A stretch of DNA of 40,772 nt, taken from positions 1 through 40,772 of IMG/VR virus record IMGVR_UViG_3300045107_000818; one strand, written 5' to 3'. The position numbers and the translations under genes are program-made. Within the stretch, counting starts at the first letter, position 1. Every line of letters begins with the position of its first letter. Positions 20,192-40,772 of the stretch are shown here, one piece after another. Source of the DNA: a virus. The notes beneath the pieces were generated by a model, which worked only from the letters and a program-made list of their open reading frames with translations, was not told the origin of the DNA and did no database searches.

Positions 20192-21571
20192 TCACGCCTT
20201 GCTCCCAGCCGCGACCCGCTTGTGGGTGGTCGCGGCTTTCTCTTCGGTCACACCCTTGGCCGGGAGCCGCTCCGCCTTGCGGCCCGTGAACTTCTCCCAA
20301 CGCTGCACGATCACGTCGCAGTAGAGCGTGTCGAGTTCCATGAGAAACGCGCTCCGCCCGGTCATCTCTGCGCCGATGAGCGTGCTCCCGCTGCCGCCGA
20401 AGAGGTCGAGCACGTTCTCGCCGGGACGCGATGAGAACTCGATGGAGCGGCGGGCCAACTCCACGGGCTTCTCCGTGAGGTGAACCATGCTCTGCGGGTT
20501 GACCTTCTTGATCGACCAGGTGTCCGGCACGTTGGCAGGGCCAAAGAAGCGATGGGCCGCGCCTTCCTTCCAGCCGTAGAAGCACCACTCGTGATTGCCC
20601 ATGAAGTCCTTCCGCGTGAGCACCGGGTGCTCTTTGATTCAGATGATCGCCTGCGCGAAGTAGAGCTCGCAGCGTTTGAGCACTGGCGGGTAGTTGCCGC
20701 AGTTGGCGTAGCCGCCCCAGATGTAGAACGTGCTGCCGGGGATCAGCACGCGGGTGATGTTGCCGAACCAAGCGGCGAGAAGCCGATCGAACTCGTCGTC
20801 CGACACAAAATCGTTGGCCAGCGGCCGGTCCTTGGCGCGGAGCTTCTTGTGCGTGGCGCGGCTCTTCTCGGGGTAGCGGTTGAGGTCAGCGCTCTGCTGG
20901 TCGTGCTGGTCGGCCTTGCCCGGCAACGCGAACGAGCTCAGGCCGGCAACGATCGCGTTGTTGGAGCGCGGCTCGACCTTCACGTTGTACGGCGGATCGG
21001 TGTTGACGAGGTGGATCGGCTGGCCATCAAGCAGACGGTCCAGGTCCTCGGGCTTGGACGAGTCGCCGCACATCAGGCGGTGGTTGCCGAGCACCCAGAT
21101 GTCGCCGGGAACGGTGGTCGCGGCGTCCGGCGCGCCCGGCACGTCATCGGGATCGGTCAAACCCTCGCTGCCCGCGGGGGCCATGATGGCGCTGAGATCC
21201 TCAGCGGTGAAACCGAGCAGCGCGAGATCGAAGTCCACGCCCTTGAGGTCGGCCAGCTCCAGAGGCAGGAGCTCCATGTCCCACGACGTCAGCGTGGCGA
21301 CCTTGTTGTCGGCGATGCGCAGCGCCTTGACCTGGTCGGGCGTGAGATCCGTCGCGCGGATCGTCGGCACCTCCTTGAGGCCGAGCTTTCGCGCGGCGCG
21401 AAGCCGCGTGTGCCCGGCGATGATCACGCCCTCAGCGTCGATCAGGATCGGCACCTTGAAGCCGAACGCCTCGATGCTCTTAGCGACAGCATCGATCGCG
21501 GCGTCGTTGATGGTGCGAGGGTTGCGGTCGTACTCGTGGACCGCGTCGATGGGAAGCGTTTCGATGTTCAT
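20192..21571 (-). pseudogene. ParB-N/DNA methyltransferase fusion with in-frame TGA
   Basis: Reads as one 459-codon gene but for TGA at codon 311 (20641-20639). Residues 1-100 are a ParB-type N-terminal domain with AGHTRLRAARKLGL. DPPY at 192-195 is motif IV of N6-adenine or N4-cytosine methyltransferases; after the stop, VLDLFGGSGSTLIGAE (387-402) is the SAM-binding motif I and TEKPVELARRSIEFSS precedes it, giving beta-class order. The stop replaces the tryptophan that homologues have, as I recall, in QAIIW.KEHPVLTRKDFMG, so it looks like a single TGG-to-TGA change. The first half lacks SAM binding and the second lacks DPPY. Reinitiation at GTG 20623, behind AAAGAG, or a read error are alternatives. 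ATG 21571 has GGAG six bases upstream. Confidence 0.8.
20207..20244 (+). terminator. Terminator hairpin at the convergent gene junction
   Basis: AGCCGCGACC, 11-base loop, GGTCGCGGCT, then TTCTCTT. The stem is ten perfect pairs. It lies 24 bases after the last plus-strand gene and inside the 3' end of the minus-strand methyltransferase gene, so it can stop the rightward cassette from running into leftward genes. Confidence 0.7.
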
Positions 21572-22119
21572 AGCGATCTCCGTCGTGAGCGCCGGCGCGG
21601 CGCATGGGGCGTCGAGGTGGCCCGCCGCACACGCGGTGGGTCCGGGGGTCGGTGGATCGCTGGTTGGTTGGCTGGATCGCTCGGGCAGTCGGGCCCGTCC
21701 GGGGGCGGATTCCGCCCGCTTGTGACCCGCTACGGGCCCCGCCCGTTGGCCACGGGTTCGCCCACGTTGGCCCACGTCGCGTTCCTGGCGGGCGGGTCTA
21801 CCAACCCCGCCAGGCGTCCGGTACGCACGCGGGCGGGCGAAAGAAACTCATTCGCCGATTGCGGCTGTTCCCGCGGGCCAAGCGACGCGATTCCTGGCGG
21901 GAAGGAACCATGCCCCCCAGGCTTCCCCCTTGGTAGGCTTCCGGCTGTAAGGCCCCCGCTAGGCGCGGCCTGGCACACGACCTGCACGGGCGAACTCGTC
22001 GGGGGACTTCTTTCACCTTCTTTCACCATTTCACCCCCCCCCTCGCGCAGACACACACATACGCGCACGCGGGGGTGGGGGAAAGAAGGTGAAAGAGGGA
22101 AAGAAGTGTGTGTATGTGT
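21572..22119. other. Non-coding 548-bp region, candidate replication origin
   Basis: Between the methyltransferase start and the PrimPol-helicase stop no minus-strand frame shows protein-like sequence; the open frames here are Pro/Gly/Arg-rich and have no ribosome site. It holds a nine-pair hairpin (CCTGGCGGG/CCCGCCAGG, 21784-21814), an 11-bp direct repeat TTCCTGGCGGG (21782 and 21892), and at its left end the polypyrimidine/polypurine inverted repeat with TTTCACC repeats. Repeats plus asymmetry beside a primase gene are typical of phage or plasmid origins, but this is inferred. Confidence 0.45.
22006..22107. repeat. Imperfect inverted repeat of polypyrimidine/polypurine arms with TTTCACC repeats
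   Basis: Left arm 22006-22042 is pure pyrimidine apart from a few A; right arm 22071-22107 is nearly pure purine and pairs with it, including a perfect 15-bp match (CTTTCACCTTCTTTC and its complement). About 28 bases separate the arms. TTTCACC occurs at 22011, 22021, 22029 and 22147, CTTCACC at 22158, and inverted GGTGAAA at 22088. The last two direct copies lie in the 3' end of the PrimPol gene. Confidence 0.6.
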
Positions 22120-34485: not shown

Positions 34486-34977
34486 TTACTCGATTTGCGC
34501 AGCCTTTGCCCGCATGGCGACCACGCCGTCCGGCGCGGGGCCTGACACCATGTCGTCAGTCCGATTGAGCGCCCGCCAGAGCCGCCGCTGGGTCGCCCAG
34601 TCAGGCTGCCGGGTCACCGGCCGCAGTTGCTTCTCGGTGATCCGATCCTTGCCGCTGTCGGGCGGCGCGAGGAAGAGCAGTTGCTCCTGAATGTCGGGCG
34701 CGAGATTGACCAGGTCCATGATCTGGCTGAGCCGCCCGCGGGTGACGTGGCCGAGCCGCGCGATCTCGGCGAAGTCCTTCACCTGCCCGCTCCGAACGAG
34801 CCAGTCGAATCGGAGCGCGAGCGCCATGAGCTTGGCCACGCGCGGCACCCGCCGAGGTGACCGGCCCGTCACGGGCTTCGGCACGGGGGGCGGTGGGTTG
34901 CCGACGCGCATCGTGCGGCTCGTGTTGACGCCGCTCTCGAAGCGGACCTTGAACGTGGCGCGATCGGGAAGGCTCAT
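34486..34977 (-). CDS. HTH protein co-encoded with the serine recombinase
   Basis: 163 aa. RVPRVAKLMALALRFDWLVR, SGQVKDFAEIARLGHVTRGR and LSQIMDLVNLAPDIQEQLLF form a ParB/KorB-like helix-turn-helix (A.LG.VTRARL.Q...L..L.P.IQE..L). The N-terminus is beta-like (RATFKVRFESGVNTS). Genes of this form follow large serine recombinases in many bacterial genomes, as I recall. ATG 34977 overlaps the recombinase stop (ATGA). It may act as a recombination accessory or regulator. Confidence 0.68.
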   Translation of the reverse strand: MSLPDRATFKVRFESGVNTSRTMRVGNPPPPVPKPVTGRSPRRVPRVAKLMALALRFDWLVRSGQVKDFAEIARLGHVTRGRLSQIMDLVNLAPDIQEQLLFLAPPDSGKDRITEKQLRPVTRQPDWATQRRLWRALNRTDDMVSGPAPDGVVAMRAKAAQIE

Positions 34978-36503
34978 GGCTTGCACTCCGCGGCGAGTCG
35001 GGACGATTCGGGGTGGAAGACCAGCGTCACCTCGCCGGCCTTGCCGTCGTACTCGACGGTCTTGATCACCGAGCGGATCAGTTCGGAGCGCTCGCGCGTG
35101 CTGAGCTGGTCCCACAGCGGCTGGAACTCCGCGAACGCCGCGTCGACCTGGTCACGACGCAGCTCGTTCTTCGCGGCGTCGGCGAGTTCGTCCTCGATCT
35201 CGCGGATCTGCTCGCCGATCTGCCGCGAGCGCTCCGCCACCTCCGCCAATCGGTCGGCATTGCTGGAGGCCCCGGCGCGGCGCTCGTCGCTGGCGAGCCA
35301 TCGGAGTTCCCGCTGCAGCGTGGCGCGGCGGTCCTCGAGTTGCGTCGCGAGCTCACGCGAGTGGGCGCGGGCGCGTTCGAGAATCACGCCCACCAGTTCC
35401 CGGTCGCGGCCGAGTGCCCGCAGCCGCTCGACCACGAACGACTCGAGCTGATCGGCGGGGATCGACTTGGACGGGCAGGTGTGGTAGCCCCGGCTCTGGG
35501 CCGCGTGGCAGGCGTAGTAGCGGTACGTGCGCTTGCCCGCCTTGGTCGTGAAGGTGTGCGACATCGGCTTGTCGCAGTTGCGGCACCGCACCAGGCCCTT
35601 GAGCAGCCCGTGGTGCGTGTTGCGGACGTCGCTCCCCTTGTCGCGTCCGTTGGCCTCCAGGATCGTCGCCGCCCGCTTCCACAGCGTGGGCTCGATGATC
35701 CCCTCGTGCTCGCCCTCAAACAACTGGTCGTGGTGCTGCACCTTGCCGAGGTAGGAGACGTTGGTCAGAATGCGGTGGACGTAGGGGTTGGTCAGCGGCA
35801 GGCCGCCGACTTTGGTCCCGTCTTTCTGGGTCCAGCTCTTGGTCGTCCAGCCCCGCTTGAGCGCCTCTTCGGTCGTCGCGCGAACCGAACGCGTCTCGAT
35901 GTAGATCGCGAAGAGCTCCCGCACCCGGAAGGCCTCGTCGCGGTTGACGATGAGCTTCCCGCCCACCACGTCGTACCCGAGGATGGGCTTGCCGCCGAAC
36001 CACTTGCCCTTGCGCCGAGTGGCCGCGATCTTGTCCCGGGTGCGCTCGGAGATGATCTCTCGCTCGAACTGGGCGAACGACAGCAGGATGTTCAGCGTCA
36101 GGCGTCCCATCGAGTGGGTGGTGTTGAACTGCTGCGTGACGCTGACGAAGGAGACCTTTTTGCGGTCGAAGACCTCCATGATCCGGGCGAAGTCCAGCAG
36201 CGAGCGGCTCAGGCGGTCGACCTTGTAGACAACCACGCAGTCGACCTTACCCGCGTCGATGTCAGCCATGAGCTGCTTCAGGCCCGGCCGCTCCATGTTG
36301 CCGCCGGTGTACCCGCCGTCGTCGTAGCGGTCGGGCAGGCACACCCACCCTTCGGACCGCTGGCTGCTGACGTAGAGCTCGCCGCTCTCGCGCTGTGCGT
36401 CGAGCGAGTTGAACTCTTGCTCGAGGCCCTCTTCGCTGCTCTTGCGGGTGTAGATCGCGCAGCGGATCAGCCCGGGCGTCTTGGAGGTCGCGGCCGCGTT
36501 CAT
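34974..36503 (-). CDS. Large serine recombinase (integrase)
   Basis: 509 aa. The resolvase domain has AIYTRKSSEEGLEQEFNSLD with catalytic Ser22, DCVVVYKVDRLSRSLLDFAR and LLSFAQFEREIISERTRDKI. The recombinase domain follows (GKPILGYDVV to LPLTNPYVHRILTNVSYLG). A zinc ribbon has C307/C310 and C332/C343, then a long coiled coil (residues about 370-450) as in phiC31-type integrases. It should integrate and excise the element between att sites. ATG 36503 overlaps the DUF2924 stop (ATGA). Confidence 0.93.
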   Translation of the reverse strand: MNAAATSKTPGLIRCAIYTRKSSEEGLEQEFNSLDAQRESGELYVSSQRSEGWVCLPDRYDDGGYTGGNMERPGLKQLMADIDAGKVDCVVVYKVDRLSRSLLDFARIMEVFDRKKVSFVSVTQQFNTTHSMGRLTLNILLSFAQFEREIISERTRDKIAATRRKGKWFGGKPILGYDVVGGKLIVNRDEAFRVRELFAIYIETRSVRATTEEALKRGWTTKSWTQKDGTKVGGLPLTNPYVHRILTNVSYLGKVQHHDQLFEGEHEGIIEPTLWKRAATILEANGRDKGSDVRNTHHGLLKGLVRCRNCDKPMSHTFTTKAGKRTYRYYACHAAQSRGYHTCPSKSIPADQLESFVVERLRALGRDRELVGVILERARAHSRELATQLEDRRATLQRELRWLASDERRAGASSNADRLAEVAERSRQIGEQIREIEDELADAAKNELRRDQVDAAFAEFQPLWDQLSTRERSELIRSVIKTVEYDGKAGEVTLVFHPESSRLAAECKP

Positions 36504-37051
36504 GATGCAGCCTCCGCCCCAACCTCAGCCGACGCCCGTTCCTTCGACGCGATCTTCATCGCGTCGGCGAAGAACTTCGCGCCGTTCCAGTGGCTGCCAG
36601 TGATCGCGTTGGCCACCGCCGACAGCGAGCGGTAGACCTTGCCCTCGCACTCAAAGCCCTTGGGCAGCACGATCACGCTGTACGCCTTGCCCTTGTACGT
36701 GCGCCACAGTGTCGACCCGGCCAGCGGCACGTCGCTGGCCCGCTGGATGCGGAGCGAGGTGATGGCATGCTTGGGGAACGGCGCGGCGCTGATCCTCGCG
36801 GGCTCCGCGATCCCGCTCGGTGCCTGCAGGCGCAGGTCTGCGTCGTCGGCGATCTCCGCCGCGCGCTGGCGGGCTCGCTCGGAGAGGTCGCCCTCCGCGT
36901 CGGCCTGGAGCCGCCACGCGATCCGCTTGATCAGGTACGGACGGTTGTTGCACCGCGTGGGCTCGCCGAAGAGCTCGGCGAAGCGAGCCTTGAGCTGCGG
37001 CGTCTTGAGCGTTCCGAGCCGCTTGAGTTCTGCATGGATGTTCAGCGCCAT
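36500..37051 (-). CDS. DUF2924 domain-containing protein
   Basis: 183 aa. ALNIHAELKRLGTLKTPQLK, ARFAELFGEPTRCNNRPYLI and KRIAWRLQADAEGDLSERAR form the DUF2924 N-terminal helical region; the C-terminal part (GSTLWRTYKGKAYSVIVLPK, then GFECEGKVYRSLSAVANAIT, GSHWNGAKFF) is the typical second domain ending G.HWNG..FF. DUF2924 genes commonly precede serine recombinases and may be recombination accessory factors. ATG 37051 has GGAGG six bases upstream. Confidence 0.88.
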   Translation of the reverse strand: MALNIHAELKRLGTLKTPQLKARFAELFGEPTRCNNRPYLIKRIAWRLQADAEGDLSERARQRAAEIADDADLRLQAPSGIAEPARISAAPFPKHAITSLRIQRASDVPLAGSTLWRTYKGKAYSVIVLPKGFECEGKVYRSLSAVANAITGSHWNGAKFFADAMKIASKERASAEVGAEAAS

Positions 37052-37320
37052 GAAGGTCCTCCAGCCCGCTCGGCTCCGACATGGCCCGCGGCCGTGTCCG
37101 GATCGAGCGGGAGCGGACGATCAGGGCGATCATCTTCCGCAGGGTCAAGTCGATAGCTCTCGGGTTTTCGATGCTCCGCCGGCGCGATGCTGGCGGCCCG
37201 ACTGGCGCGGACGCCCGCCCGAATCCGCTCCCGGTGCCAGCGGTGCACGGCGGCGGCCAGCGTGGCGATGACGGCCTCGCGCCGCTTGGCGGCGGAGTTC
37301 AGAGGGTCCTGCTGGGACAC
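37042..37320 (-). CDS. Small hypothetical protein, first gene of the integration operon
   Basis: 92 aa. It is helical and basic at first (SAAKRREAVIATLAAAVHRW, then HRERIRAGVRASRA) and Asp/Pro-rich later (RLDPAEDDRPDRPLPLDPDT). No family recognised. GTG 37320 has AAGGAG seven bases upstream and is preceded by a seven-pair hairpin and copy C of the 21-bp element. It overlaps the DUF2924 start by ten bases. Its first-gene position parallels the 110-aa and 73-aa genes behind the other two copies. Confidence 0.6.
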   Translation of the reverse strand: MSQQDPLNSAAKRREAVIATLAAAVHRWHRERIRAGVRASRAASIAPAEHRKPESYRLDPAEDDRPDRPLPLDPDTAAGHVGAERAGGPSWR

Positions 37321-37432: not shown

Positions 37433-38056
37433 TCAGAGCGAAGGCTTGTCACAGGACCGCTTCGCTGCCATCGGGTCCAGTCGCTGCAGCAGCCCCGATT
37501 CAGGAAATCCGCTCACAATCTGTGTGCCGTTGTCCGTGATGATCACTTCCGATGACGGGTACGCGTCGCCTCTGAGTTCAAGTCCAGCGTGCCTGTCCGA
37601 CAACAGGTGCACCCGCTGATTGCTCGACCCTCTCCACAGCAACCCATCGGTCTTGAGTTCTTTCACGAATCGGCCTGTCACGAGGACATCGAGACAGTCC
37701 AGTAGCCTCACTTGCTCAGCACTTGTGAGCTCTTCAATCTCATAGCCCGTAAACGCCATGAGCGATAGATTCTGCCGCAGAAGCTGCTCAGCCAATGATG
37801 CGAGCGGAGCAGCCTGGGCAAAGGGCTCACCGCCCGTGAACGTCACGCCGTCAATCGGCTGGCACCCGACGATCAGTGCGACAAGCTCACTTACTCCCAT
37901 GATCCGTCGTGGCGAAAACGACCATGTATCCGGGTTCCAGCAGCCGGGACAGTGAAGCGGACACCCTTGGACCCAAAGGACGAAGCGATCGCCGGGCCCA
38001 TTCACACTGCTCCGTGACAAACATCTGGCAACATTAATGAGGGGCTCGGTTTCCAT
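37433..38056 (-). CDS. Radical SAM activase-like protein (4Fe-4S, NrdG type)
   Basis: 207 aa. GPGDRFVLWVQGCPLHCPGC carries the C32-x3-C36-x2-C39 iron-sulfur cluster motif; VTFTGGEPFA (71-80) binds SAM; SLMAFTGYEIEELTSAEQVR and LLDCLDVLVTGRFVKELKTD follow as in NrdG/PflA-type activases. It is the last gene of a four-gene operon with DUF1257, DUF2997 and a coiled-coil protein. ATG 38056 overlaps the DUF1257 stop (TGATG). It likely activates or modifies a partner in that system rather than a ribonucleotide reductase, since none is nearby. Confidence 0.87.
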   Translation of the reverse strand: METEPLINVARCLSRSSVNGPGDRFVLWVQGCPLHCPGCWNPDTWSFSPRRIMGVSELVALIVGCQPIDGVTFTGGEPFAQAAPLASLAEQLLRQNLSLMAFTGYEIEELTSAEQVRLLDCLDVLVTGRFVKELKTDGLLWRGSSNQRVHLLSDRHAGLELRGDAYPSSEVIITDNGTQIVSGFPESGLLQRLDPMAAKRSCDKPSL

Positions 38057-38550
38057 CAGTAGACCCGCTTTGAGAGCACCAGTCTGATGCGTCCCTGCTC
38101 GACACGCTCCTCGATCCGATAGCCGCTGCTCTTGGCCTTCTCGATCACCGCCTGCCGTGTGGCCTCGACGAGTCGACGACGCTCCTCCTCGGCCGCGAGG
38201 CGTTGTTCCTCAGCCATTCGGCGGCTCTTCTCACTCTGATGAACCTCGTAGCGACTGCTCAGGCGTGCCAGCCACGCTGAACCGAAGCGAGACTGGTCGT
38301 ATCCGCTCACGATCAGGCGAAAGCCGGTCGGTGTTCGAACGAATCCGACATCATTTGACGCGCTGCCGATGTGCTGGCGGCGGATGATGATGTGGGCTTG
38401 CTGCTCTCGCGCTGCTCCCTCGTAGCCAACCAGTGCCACCGCCTGTTGATGCACCTCCACCATAGAACGTGCAACGCCAAGGTCAGCCAGCGCATCGAGA
38501 AGGCTATCGGTATCGGTCATTGGAGTGGCGAGTTGCAGGTACGCGCTCAT
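38056..38550 (-). CDS. DUF1257 (Ycf35-like) protein
   Basis: 164 aa. SAYLQLATPMTDTDSLLDAL, VEVHQQAVALVGYEGAAREQ, QAHIIIRRQHIGSASNDVGF and RLIVSGYDQSRFGSAWLARL match DUF1257, the family of plastid/cyanobacterial Ycf35; IIIRR.H.GS.SND.GF is its hallmark. A Glu/Arg-rich helix follows (EKSRRMAEEQRLAAEEERRR), then a C-terminal strand pair. Function is not established. ATG 38550 overlaps the DUF2997 stop (ATGA) and has GGAGG upstream. Confidence 0.87.
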   Translation of the reverse strand: MSAYLQLATPMTDTDSLLDALADLGVARSMVEVHQQAVALVGYEGAAREQQAHIIIRRQHIGSASNDVGFVRTPTGFRLIVSGYDQSRFGSAWLARLSSRYEVHQSEKSRRMAEEQRLAAEEERRRLVEATRQAVIEKAKSSGYRIEERVEQGRIRLVLSKRVY

Positions 38551-38762
38551 GGCCGCCCTCCGCTCTTCAGGTTGGCCTGGTTGGATGTCGACGCACTGGT
38601 CGGCCGATCCGCCTGCTTGCGATCGACGCTTACCCACACCCCGGGGCAATCGGCGAGGATCTTCTCGAGGTCCTTGATACACGCATCACCAACAAATCCA
38701 TGTGCGTCGGCTTTGATCCGGCCTTGCTCGTCGATCTCAATCTCAATCCGCTGTTCTCGCAT
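38547..38762 (-). CDS. DUF2997 protein
   Basis: 71 aa. REQRIEIEIDEQGRIKADAH and GFVGDACIKDLEKILADCPG match the short DUF2997 form (I.I.I...G.I...A.GF.G..C......E..L), which almost always accompanies DUF1257. The C-terminus is polar (KQADRPTSASTSNQANLKSG). ATG 38762 lies four bases after the coiled-coil gene stop, with AAGAGGTG upstream. Its role is unknown; constant pairing suggests a complex with the DUF1257 protein. Confidence 0.85.
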   Translation of the reverse strand: MREQRIEIEIDEQGRIKADAHGFVGDACIKDLEKILADCPGVWVSVDRKQADRPTSASTSNQANLKSGGRP

Positions 38763-38765
38763 GGG

Positions 38766-40772
38766 TCACCTCTTTCGAGCCACGAGGCGTGCGTTGAGCC
38801 GTGCAGCCTCGGCTCGGGCAGGCTCGAGTTGCTCCCAAGCGTCGACCGCCAGGAAGCGGTCCGAACCTGCTTCCAGTAGCTCGCCAACCGACGGCAAGGC
38901 CTCCGCTGGAATCCGGAGTCCGGGCGACTCCCTAAGGGGTGCGGGAACAAACCCTTTGCCGCTTTTGCCCTTGGCATCATTGCTCTGCTTCAGTTTCAGA
39001 CTGAAGGGCCGTTTCAGTGCCTGCTCTGGCTCACTCCGGCTGCCGTTCAGGCGTGCGATCTCGCTGCTGACCGATTTCAGTTCATCGTGGAGCTTCCGCT
39101 GCCGAGCCTTCCAATCCGACTCACTCTCCTCCTTGCCTTGCCCCCCCTTGATCTCCTCGTCAAGGGCTGCCTTGCGTTCCTTGGCGGCAGCGACACTGGC
39201 ATCAATCACGCCGAGCCGCTGCCTGTGCTCAGCCTGGTCCTTCTCCCACTGCTCGCGTTGCTGCTGTTCGTCAGCCTTGGCGATATCGCTATCCACGCCA
39301 CGGACATACTCCTGCACCGCCGATTCGAGCGCATCCAAACGCGCTACTGCGCCGCGAGCGGCGTCTACCGATCCGCCAGCGAGTTTCAGGGGTACGAGCA
39401 AATCATGCTCTGCCATCAACTCGCGACGCATTCGGTCAAGGCCAAGTACGCCCTCGAACCAGCGCCCAAGTGAGGACCTCGCCAGATCGCTGCGTTCGCC
39501 AGCGGACTTAAGCAGTTCGCCGCAGGACTTGACTCGCAAGGCAACGGACTTCTCCGCTTCATCCCACTGCTGGTAGAGGCCGCTGCGAACCGCCTTCGTT
39601 GGAGGTGATGGCGGAACATTCGTCCAGGCGAAGACGGCCTTGCGGACAAGCGCAGGTGCGTCCGGCCACTTTGCTGGCTCCTTGTTCGACACCTCTTCCA
39701 GTGTCTCGCAAGGAACCTCACCTGCCTTGATCTCTTCTTCCTCGATACATGGCTTGGCTCCAGCAGCGCCTGGAAGCCATACCGCCCCCGACAGCGTTCG
39801 CAGAGATGCCTCCCGGCGGAAGACTGCTGCTGGTGTGGCTTGGACTAGCGCATCGTGGAGCGGCCGCGCTTGGGACGGATTCAGTCTGACACGGAGGAGG
39901 AACTCGGCGATTGGCCATTCGATCACTCCTTCCGTTGGCGTGACCCACATGTCCGGCAGCTGAACCCCGAGGCTGACCACTTCCGACCCGGCCGCTACAA
40001 GTTCCGCCAACGCTGCATGTCCTTCGCCCGATGCCAGAGTCACGAGGCGTCGAGCCCGCTTCGGGAGGCCGGCGCTTCCACTCCGTACACAAACCGCGTC
40101 ATTCGGAACAACTTCAGAATCCACTGGCCGGCGAAGCAAACGCACCGGACCGTCCGTGGGAGGGACGACATCTACTGGTCGGTCTTGGGGCGGCTCGAAC
40201 GTCAACGCCTGTGACTTTGGCTCTGTCCATGCCTCATCCACAGCATGATGCCAGAACCAGTGAAGAGCAACGCGGACGAGCCCCGCGCTCTGAGCCTCGT
40301 CCAGTTCGACGATCCATTGGGGTGCTCCGGTCAGAATGGCTCCGCCGCAGAGCACGGCGCGCCGGGTTGCGAAGTTCACCACCGCTGGAATCAGCGGCAG
40401 CGACGTACGGCGTGCGAGCAGGAAGGACGACGCCCTCTCTCGCAGACCCGGATCTCGCTGTCCCGTCCCAAAGCCCAAGGAGCCCAGCACATACACCCGA
40501 CGATCACCAACTGCGGCATCGAGCATGGCACGCGTGAGCGCACCGGGTCCTGCGTCCGACAGTACAAACATGGACGGCTGACTGGCATCGCCAACTACAC
40601 GGCGGACGAGGTCGCTGGCCTGAGCACTCACGGGGTCGATCCAAGGACCGTTGAGAGCAAAGCGCCCTGCGGCCTCCGGGAAGCACTCCCATGCCATGGG
40701 CAGGCGCGCGTCGGAACGGTCAATCGCCTTGCTGCGCGGGTACGGCGCGATGGGGCCGCGTAGCGTGCTCAT
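38766..40772 (-). CDS. Large coiled-coil protein with possible PLD-like N-terminus (may continue past the edge)
   Basis: At least 668 aa; ATG is the last codon of the window, so a start further right cannot be excluded. Residues about 60-200 (FVLSDAGPGALTRAMLDAAV, then FLLARRTSLPLIPAVVNFAT, AVLCGGAILTGAPQWIVELD and WFWHHAVDEAW) resemble a phospholipase-D-like fold in which the HKD residues are not evident. Residues about 465-590 form a Glu/Lys/Gln-rich coiled coil (RQRLGVIDASVAAAKERKAA, then LDEEIKGGQGKEESESDWKA). The end (PAEALPSVGELLEAGSDRFL) is helical. It heads the DUF2997-DUF1257-radical SAM operon. PLD-like assignment is tentative. Confidence 0.6.
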   Translation of the reverse strand: MSTLRGPIAPYPRSKAIDRSDARLPMAWECFPEAAGRFALNGPWIDPVSAQASDLVRRVVGDASQPSMFVLSDAGPGALTRAMLDAAVGDRRVYVLGSLGFGTGQRDPGLRERASSFLLARRTSLPLIPAVVNFATRRAVLCGGAILTGAPQWIVELDEAQSAGLVRVALHWFWHHAVDEAWTEPKSQALTFEPPQDRPVDVVPPTDGPVRLLRRPVDSEVVPNDAVCVRSGSAGLPKRARRLVTLASGEGHAALAELVAAGSEVVSLGVQLPDMWVTPTEGVIEWPIAEFLLRVRLNPSQARPLHDALVQATPAAVFRREASLRTLSGAVWLPGAAGAKPCIEEEEIKAGEVPCETLEEVSNKEPAKWPDAPALVRKAVFAWTNVPPSPPTKAVRSGLYQQWDEAEKSVALRVKSCGELLKSAGERSDLARSSLGRWFEGVLGLDRMRRELMAEHDLLVPLKLAGGSVDAARGAVARLDALESAVQEYVRGVDSDIAKADEQQQREQWEKDQAEHRQRLGVIDASVAAAKERKAALDEEIKGGQGKEESESDWKARQRKLHDELKSVSSEIARLNGSRSEPEQALKRPFSLKLKQSNDAKGKSGKGFVPAPLRESPGLRIPAEALPSVGELLEAGSDRFLAVDAWEQLEPARAEAARLNARLVARKR

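Follow-up and report, generated by a model that had tools for sequence, protein, structure and literature searches.

What kind of machine is encoded by the DUF1257, DUF2997 and radical SAM genes that follow a large coiled-coil gene at the end of a tailed-phage record? DUF1257 (Ycf35) and DUF2997 are old and widespread proteins for which we know of no function, and among 5.39 million open papers covered by a text search, only 3 mention either name. The stretch analyzed here, referred to as the window, is the whole 40.8-kb virus record IMGVR_UViG_3300045107_000818 of IMG/VR (40,772 nt), in which positions 37,433–40,772 hold the four genes under study. Comparison with homologous loci points to the 3′ half of a seven-gene mobile anti-invader operon, a reading that, with its anti-invader role, we consider reasonably probable. 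A sequence-only reading of the window had proposed a coiled-coil/DUF2997/DUF1257/radical SAM operon, and all four genes were recovered where it had placed them, tightly packed on one strand:

38766–40772, minus strand: p668, a protein of 668 amino acids (aa) with a degenerate phospholipase D (PLD)-like region (residues ~14–394), a long coiled coil (~398–587) and a conserved C-terminal segment (open reading frame (ORF), hhalign and AlphaFold2 (AF2) helices).
38547–38762, minus strand: DUF2997 protein, 71 aa (PF11211, E = 5e-5; same position in loci L002, L013 and L015).
38056–38550, minus strand: DUF1257 (Ycf35-like) protein, 164 aa, with a charged helical C-terminal extension (PF06868, E = 1e-7; alignment).
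37433–38056, minus strand: radical SAM protein, NrdG/activase-like (PF13353, E = 9e-37; alignment of 11 homologues).

In L001, whose copy is nearly identical, the junctions from p668 to the radical SAM gene measure 3, −4 and −1 bp. In the window, DUF1257 starts at the ATG at 38550. The DUF1257 and radical SAM matches lie above the Pfam cut-offs, the DUF2997 score falls marginally below (23.5 versus 24.1 bits), and p668 matched no Pfam family. Values of dN/dS were 0.05–0.2 for p668, DUF2997 and DUF1257 against their homologues in genome G003; the radical SAM gene gave 0.15 against L002 and was not computable against G003, where synonymous sites are saturated. All genes with a computable ratio are thus under purifying selection, and these low ratios indicate that the window ORFs are real genes.

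The radical SAM protein retains intact CxxxCxxC and GGEP motifs across the 11-homologue alignment. Its assignment as NrdG was rejected because the TIGR02491 (NrdG) score of 117.8 bits lies under the cut-off of 126.1 and the operon lacks an NrdD partner: a motif search of the operon found neither an NrdD-like gene nor an RVxGY-type glycyl motif, and a glycyl-radical motif search of its proteins returned none that is canonical. DUF1257 of the seven-gene form has a C-terminal GY that other DUF1257 homologues do not keep. Between the window and L002 or L003, the radical SAM gene is much more diverged (57–68% aa identity) than its neighbors (84–98%), suggesting that it evolves faster or was exchanged. 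The end of DNA similarity to L002/L003 at 37605 raised the possibility of an att site within this gene; it was rejected after protein comparison displayed a complete but more diverged gene throughout.

The start codon of p668 coincides with the record edge, where the operon is cut and beyond which it goes on. The full locus is present in two Phycisphaerales genomes, with p668 96% (L001) and 94% (L002) identical to that of the window. Upstream of p668 in both lie an AAA ATPase of 538 aa, a superfamily 1 (SF1) helicase of ~1,095 aa and p556 (556 aa), confirming the predicted continuation past the right edge and the suggestion that an AAA ATPase or helicase would be found there. The order is p97/Ycf46-like AAA ATPase, UPF1-like SF1 helicase, p556, p668, DUF2997, DUF1257 and radical SAM, with several of the genes overlapping by 1–4 bp. 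The nearest Protein Data Bank (PDB) match of the ATPase is p97/CDC48; the helicase carries PF13086 and PF13087, with SMUBP-2 and UPF1 as its top PDB matches. The extended locus is not a plain metabolic operon. All seven genes occur in identical order in G037 and G093, which class-level searches place in other classes, so that the arrangement is kept across three Planctomycetota classes; identities to these two operons span 61% (AAA, G037) to ~20% (p668 and p556, G093). The helicase of G037 is split over two reading frames, which probably reflects an assembly frameshift. The distribution is nevertheless sparse: p668 profile matches occur in 4/392 Planctomycetota genomes, the p556 profile adds G088 and G170 (a range of 4 to 6 of 392), and tblastn of p668, p556 and DUF1257 against plasmids gave no matches.

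The sequence-only reading had also suspected a degenerate PLD-like domain in the large protein, and profile comparison agreed. Residues 14–394 of p668 match the PLD proteins that occupy the same gene position in sibling operons (hhalign, 98.4% probability, E = 4.9e-15). A general PLD profile built on cardiolipin-synthase-type proteins failed to detect p668; only the positional orthologues succeeded. The catalytic HKD motif (HxKx4D) is absent from 6/6 p668 proteins, with at least two copies in 4/4 positional PLD orthologues; the single HARRRLAD of the L014 p668 does not qualify as an HKD. Given the profile match and the loss of HKD in all six, p668 is a PLD relative whose active site has been lost and to which a coiled coil has been added; its PLD fold would serve as a scaffold rather than as an evident nuclease. 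Similarly, residues 8–371 of p556 match a 369-aa protein of the Vibrio, Pontibrevibacter and G088 operons described below (98.6%, E = 9.5e-16). Controls with reversed sequences and with AAA or unrelated proteins were negative for both matches, and PDB profile searches with alignments A2, A3 and A6 returned chance matches only. The p556 of the window clade and of L013 carries a C-terminal extra domain with an HDR motif resembling a PLD half-site. Structure prediction of the large protein, which the earlier reading had suggested, succeeded in part: the coiled coil alone was modeled confidently, and the remaining helices were placed at low confidence (mean predicted local distance difference test (pLDDT) 46). 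The AF2 model of p556, also of low overall confidence, predicts a helical N-terminus with a winged helix-turn-helix (wHTH)-like region.

The operon divides into a trio (helicase, p556 and PLD/p668) and a quartet (AAA, DUF2997, DUF1257 and radical SAM), each of which also occurs elsewhere. The trio was found with three companion sets: a sigma-54 regulator, a vWA-PP2C-kinase triad or the quartet. In G088, helicase, p556-like protein, true PLD protein and sigma-54 regulator follow one another, and G182 (L014, 6886–16698) contains a helicase-p556-p668-vWA-PP2C-kinase operon. Plasmids of Vibrio and Pontibrevibacter (L085, 512–7340; L086, 9701–16264; L087, 546–7371) encode a helicase, the 369-aa protein, a two-HKD PLD and a sigma-54 regulator; the Vibrio aerogenes copy lies near cas1-cas2, and this plasmid operon looks like a stand-alone defence candidate.

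Conversely, plasmids of Actinomycetota and Bacillota carry the quartet but not the trio. On a cyanobacterial plasmid, which also has RloB and DndB genes, AAA-DUF1257-DUF2997 occurs with no radical SAM gene annotated. Since the Pfam DUF1257 model missed the locus in a six-frame genome search, our own alignments were used for counting. With that profile, a DUF1257 locus was present in 13/392 Planctomycetota genomes, with the trio in 3 and without it in 10; the AAA gene was seen in nine of these ten, and a radical SAM gene in four, clustered with the rest in three and ~7 kb away in the fourth. In the plain quartet DUF1257 mostly precedes DUF2997, an order that the seven-gene form reverses. Two further AAA homologues were seen in other settings: a Treponema succinifaciens plasmid (L018, 11339–13494) has the same AAA and radical SAM pair within a contractile-injection-system-like cluster (VgrG, baseplate V), and the Streptococcus satellite phage Javan368 (L022, 12050–13627) has a nearly full-length homologue (33%) at the phage end.

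That AAA-DUF1257-DUF2997 is mostly found without the trio would also fit a chance adjacency, in which an unrelated coiled-coil gene precedes, by accident, a metabolic Fe-S/AAA cluster of cyanobacterial type. This explanation, which we regard as hardly credible, is contradicted by the shared order of all seven genes, several with overlapping starts, in three classes. As trio and quartet each occur apart, the seven-gene operon instead appears to have arisen by the joining of a control module with a helicase effector.

Between G001 and G002, DNA identity is 88–95% in six of the operon's seven genes, against 81% for rpoB; only the radical SAM gene departs from this (59% aa; 72% DNA, measured over part of the gene). 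The homologous stretch opens at the start codon of the AAA gene, and the GC content of the operon is 62%, compared with 68% in the L001 flank and the window phage. With identity above that of rpoB, homology beginning at this start codon and a lower GC, the operon moves between genomes.

The window record is a tailed phage with portal, terminase, capsid protease, primase, single-stranded DNA-binding protein and helicase genes, all on the minus strand. The coincidence of both record ends with gene boundaries (a stop codon at base 1 and the ATG at 40772) points to a provirus that software trimmed, cutting through the operon. On the phage side, the operon is adjoined by three genes:

37042–37320, minus strand: small ORF, 92 aa, preceding DUF2924 and kept in L001; likely the leading gene of the phage's recombination module, outside the operon.
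36500–37051, minus strand: DUF2924 protein (PF11149, E = 1e-37).
34974–36503, minus strand: large serine recombinase of the phage (PF00239/PF07508/PF13408).

Elsewhere in the window, a phage protein with a Hint (intein-like) domain adjoins the tail genes (621–2186), and a ParB-like domain is fused to a DNA methyltransferase-type protein (20639–21775), with a comparable fusion in G002 (L012, 10666–12279).

This setting raises the alternative that the operon is a prophage accessory serving the phage, through superinfection exclusion or takeover of host nucleic-acid metabolism. In the window the operon adjoins the phage's recombinase end on the same strand, large serine recombinases of the window type flank it in L001, L002 and L003, and related recombinases adjoin it in L001 and L003/L004. 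On the other side in L001, however, 395 bp separate the AAA gene from a tRNA-Asn gene, past which the genes look like those of a host. In G004, the operon has the recombinase end of a related phage on one side and transposases on the other, with host secretin/T2SSE genes beyond the transposases. No att repeat turned up when the tRNA-Asn region was compared with the phage. The G004 source (L034–L036) is a 57-kb viral contig with phage early genes, operon, transposases, secretin/T2SSE and phage tail genes in an order unlike that of the window, and its prophage boundaries or its assembly are ambiguous. In addition, no adjoining phage recombinase was seen at the G037 operon, the operon proteins are 68–91% conserved compared with 27–53% for the phage early genes around the recombinase, and superinfection exclusion would itself count as defence. 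We therefore consider a phage-serving role improbable. The operon is located at the phage–chromosome junction.

Two described defence systems resemble the trio. In CoCoNuTs, UPF1-like helicases (CnuH) typically have a downstream wHTH-effector gene (CnuE), a TerY-P triad (vWA-PP2C-kinase) or RtcR is often nearby, and RNA targeting is predicted (PMC11090510). The operon resembles the Type II/III CnuH-CnuE layout in that a UPF1-like SF1 helicase precedes a helical, putatively wHTH-like protein and then a PLD- or HEPN-like effector, and sibling operons have the vWA-PP2C-kinase triad or an RtcR-like gene. Compared by description, p556 has the position of CnuE and a predicted N-terminal HTH-like region, the latter from a low-confidence model. 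Unlike CoCoNuTs, the complete operons (L001, L002, L013 and L015) lack McrB/McrC-type CnuB/CnuC, their AAA protein being p97/Ycf46-like; moreover, the PLD protein is separate and catalytically degenerate, and AAA, DUF2997, DUF1257 and radical SAM genes are present. Assignment as a CoCoNuT was rejected for want of McrB/McrC.

Mokosh, described as degrading viral transcripts (PMC11291487), shares the helicase-with-PLD theme, and MkoA is the best PADLOC profile for the helicase (E = 9e-74). The match is limited to the helicase part, with no kinase family in the operon helicase (P0006), and no operon protein tested matched MkoB. MkoC likewise matches in the helicase part only, the PLD-like protein here being separate and unfused. 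Without a kinase fusion or MkoB, assignment as Mokosh was also rejected.

Closer relatives cover one half of the operon each. Cyanobacterial Ycf46-Ycf35-DUF2997 clusters and plasmid AAA/DUF1257/DUF2997/4Fe-4S clusters share the AAA family (33–44% identity to full-length plasmid hits), the same small partners and radical SAM family, and AAA, DUF1257 and DUF2997 in one operon, but lack helicase, p556 and p668. The Vibrio and Pontibrevibacter plasmid operons have a homologous helicase (33–37%), the p556 N-domain and a PLD in the same order, but with two HKD motifs in the PLD, a sigma-54 regulator and no quartet. The seven-gene operon is thus probably a previously unknown variant of the CnuHE/Mokosh-like helicase kind.

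Defence genes lie within ~22 kb of the trio in 3/3 genomes with long enough contigs, in line with the link to defence that the earlier reading had anticipated. G037 contains a PLD protein as well as PsyrTA (PADLOC, E = 3e-290 and 2e-112); the latter, a complete RecQ-PRTase plus DprA-like pair (L025, 2840–5976), is ~14 kb from the operon. G002 has a type IIG restriction-methylation gene (7e-178) and an HKD-Snf2 helicase, and G182 a type IIG restriction gene, a NOV_C/TmtA-like gene and a McrB-like gene with a DpnI-type HTH.

Several points weigh against an anti-invader role. The defence neighborhood comes from three genomes with no background rate, and is suggestive rather than a statistic. The quartet also occurs in settings without any sign of defence (a cyanobacterial ferredoxin cluster and a contractile injection cluster). 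p668 has no catalytic motif, and the C-terminal HxRx4D of p556, the sole such motif, failed the profile test against PLD, its aspartate being out of register in L013. Finally, the AF2 models are poor (mean pLDDT 46 for p668 and 38 for p556), having been built from 3–4 close sequences. The conflict-system proposal thus stands in part: the AAA/helicase extension, degenerate PLD and defence neighbors favor it, whereas DUF1257 and DUF2997 alone do not mark conflict because they are also found in ordinary cyanobacterial contexts.

These same contexts could fit a machine for stress response or RNA maintenance, with a UPF1-like helicase under RtcR- or TerY-type control, that would repair or clear damaged RNA or DNA of the host, its defence neighbors reflecting shared mobile islands only. 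RtcR is associated with RNA repair, sibling operons have an RtcR-like sigma-54 regulator, and DUF1257/DUF2997 homologues stand beside a ferredoxin gene in cyanobacterial genomes. Against this, the operon has a very scattered distribution (4 to 6 of 392 genomes), has been transferred between genomes and stands beside restriction and PsyrTA genes; housekeeping functions are rarely so distributed, which weakens this explanation, and we judge it rather unlikely.

Under the anti-invader reading, the UPF1-like helicase, p556 and p668 would act together on foreign RNA or DNA, and the quartet would sense or license activation. Remodeling of the helicase/PLD complex may fall to the AAA ATPase, and the setting of a switch, by redox sensing or a one-step protein modification, to the radical SAM protein. 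Only tentatively, we propose that radical SAM, DUF1257/DUF2997 and the p97-like AAA form a post-translational or redox switch over a UPF1-like helicase defence complex, replacing the TerY-P phosphorylation or sigma-54 regulator.

The locus also offers a putative case, traceable by gene position, of a PLD protein turned into a coiled-coil scaffold after loss of its active site. The joining of the quartet to a recognizable helicase effector, with swappable control modules in the siblings, gives DUF1257 and DUF2997 a testable role as part of a switch, based on ATP and radical SAM, that would act on a machine processing nucleic acids. If that switch reading is true, it would be the first function for the DUF1257/DUF2997 module.

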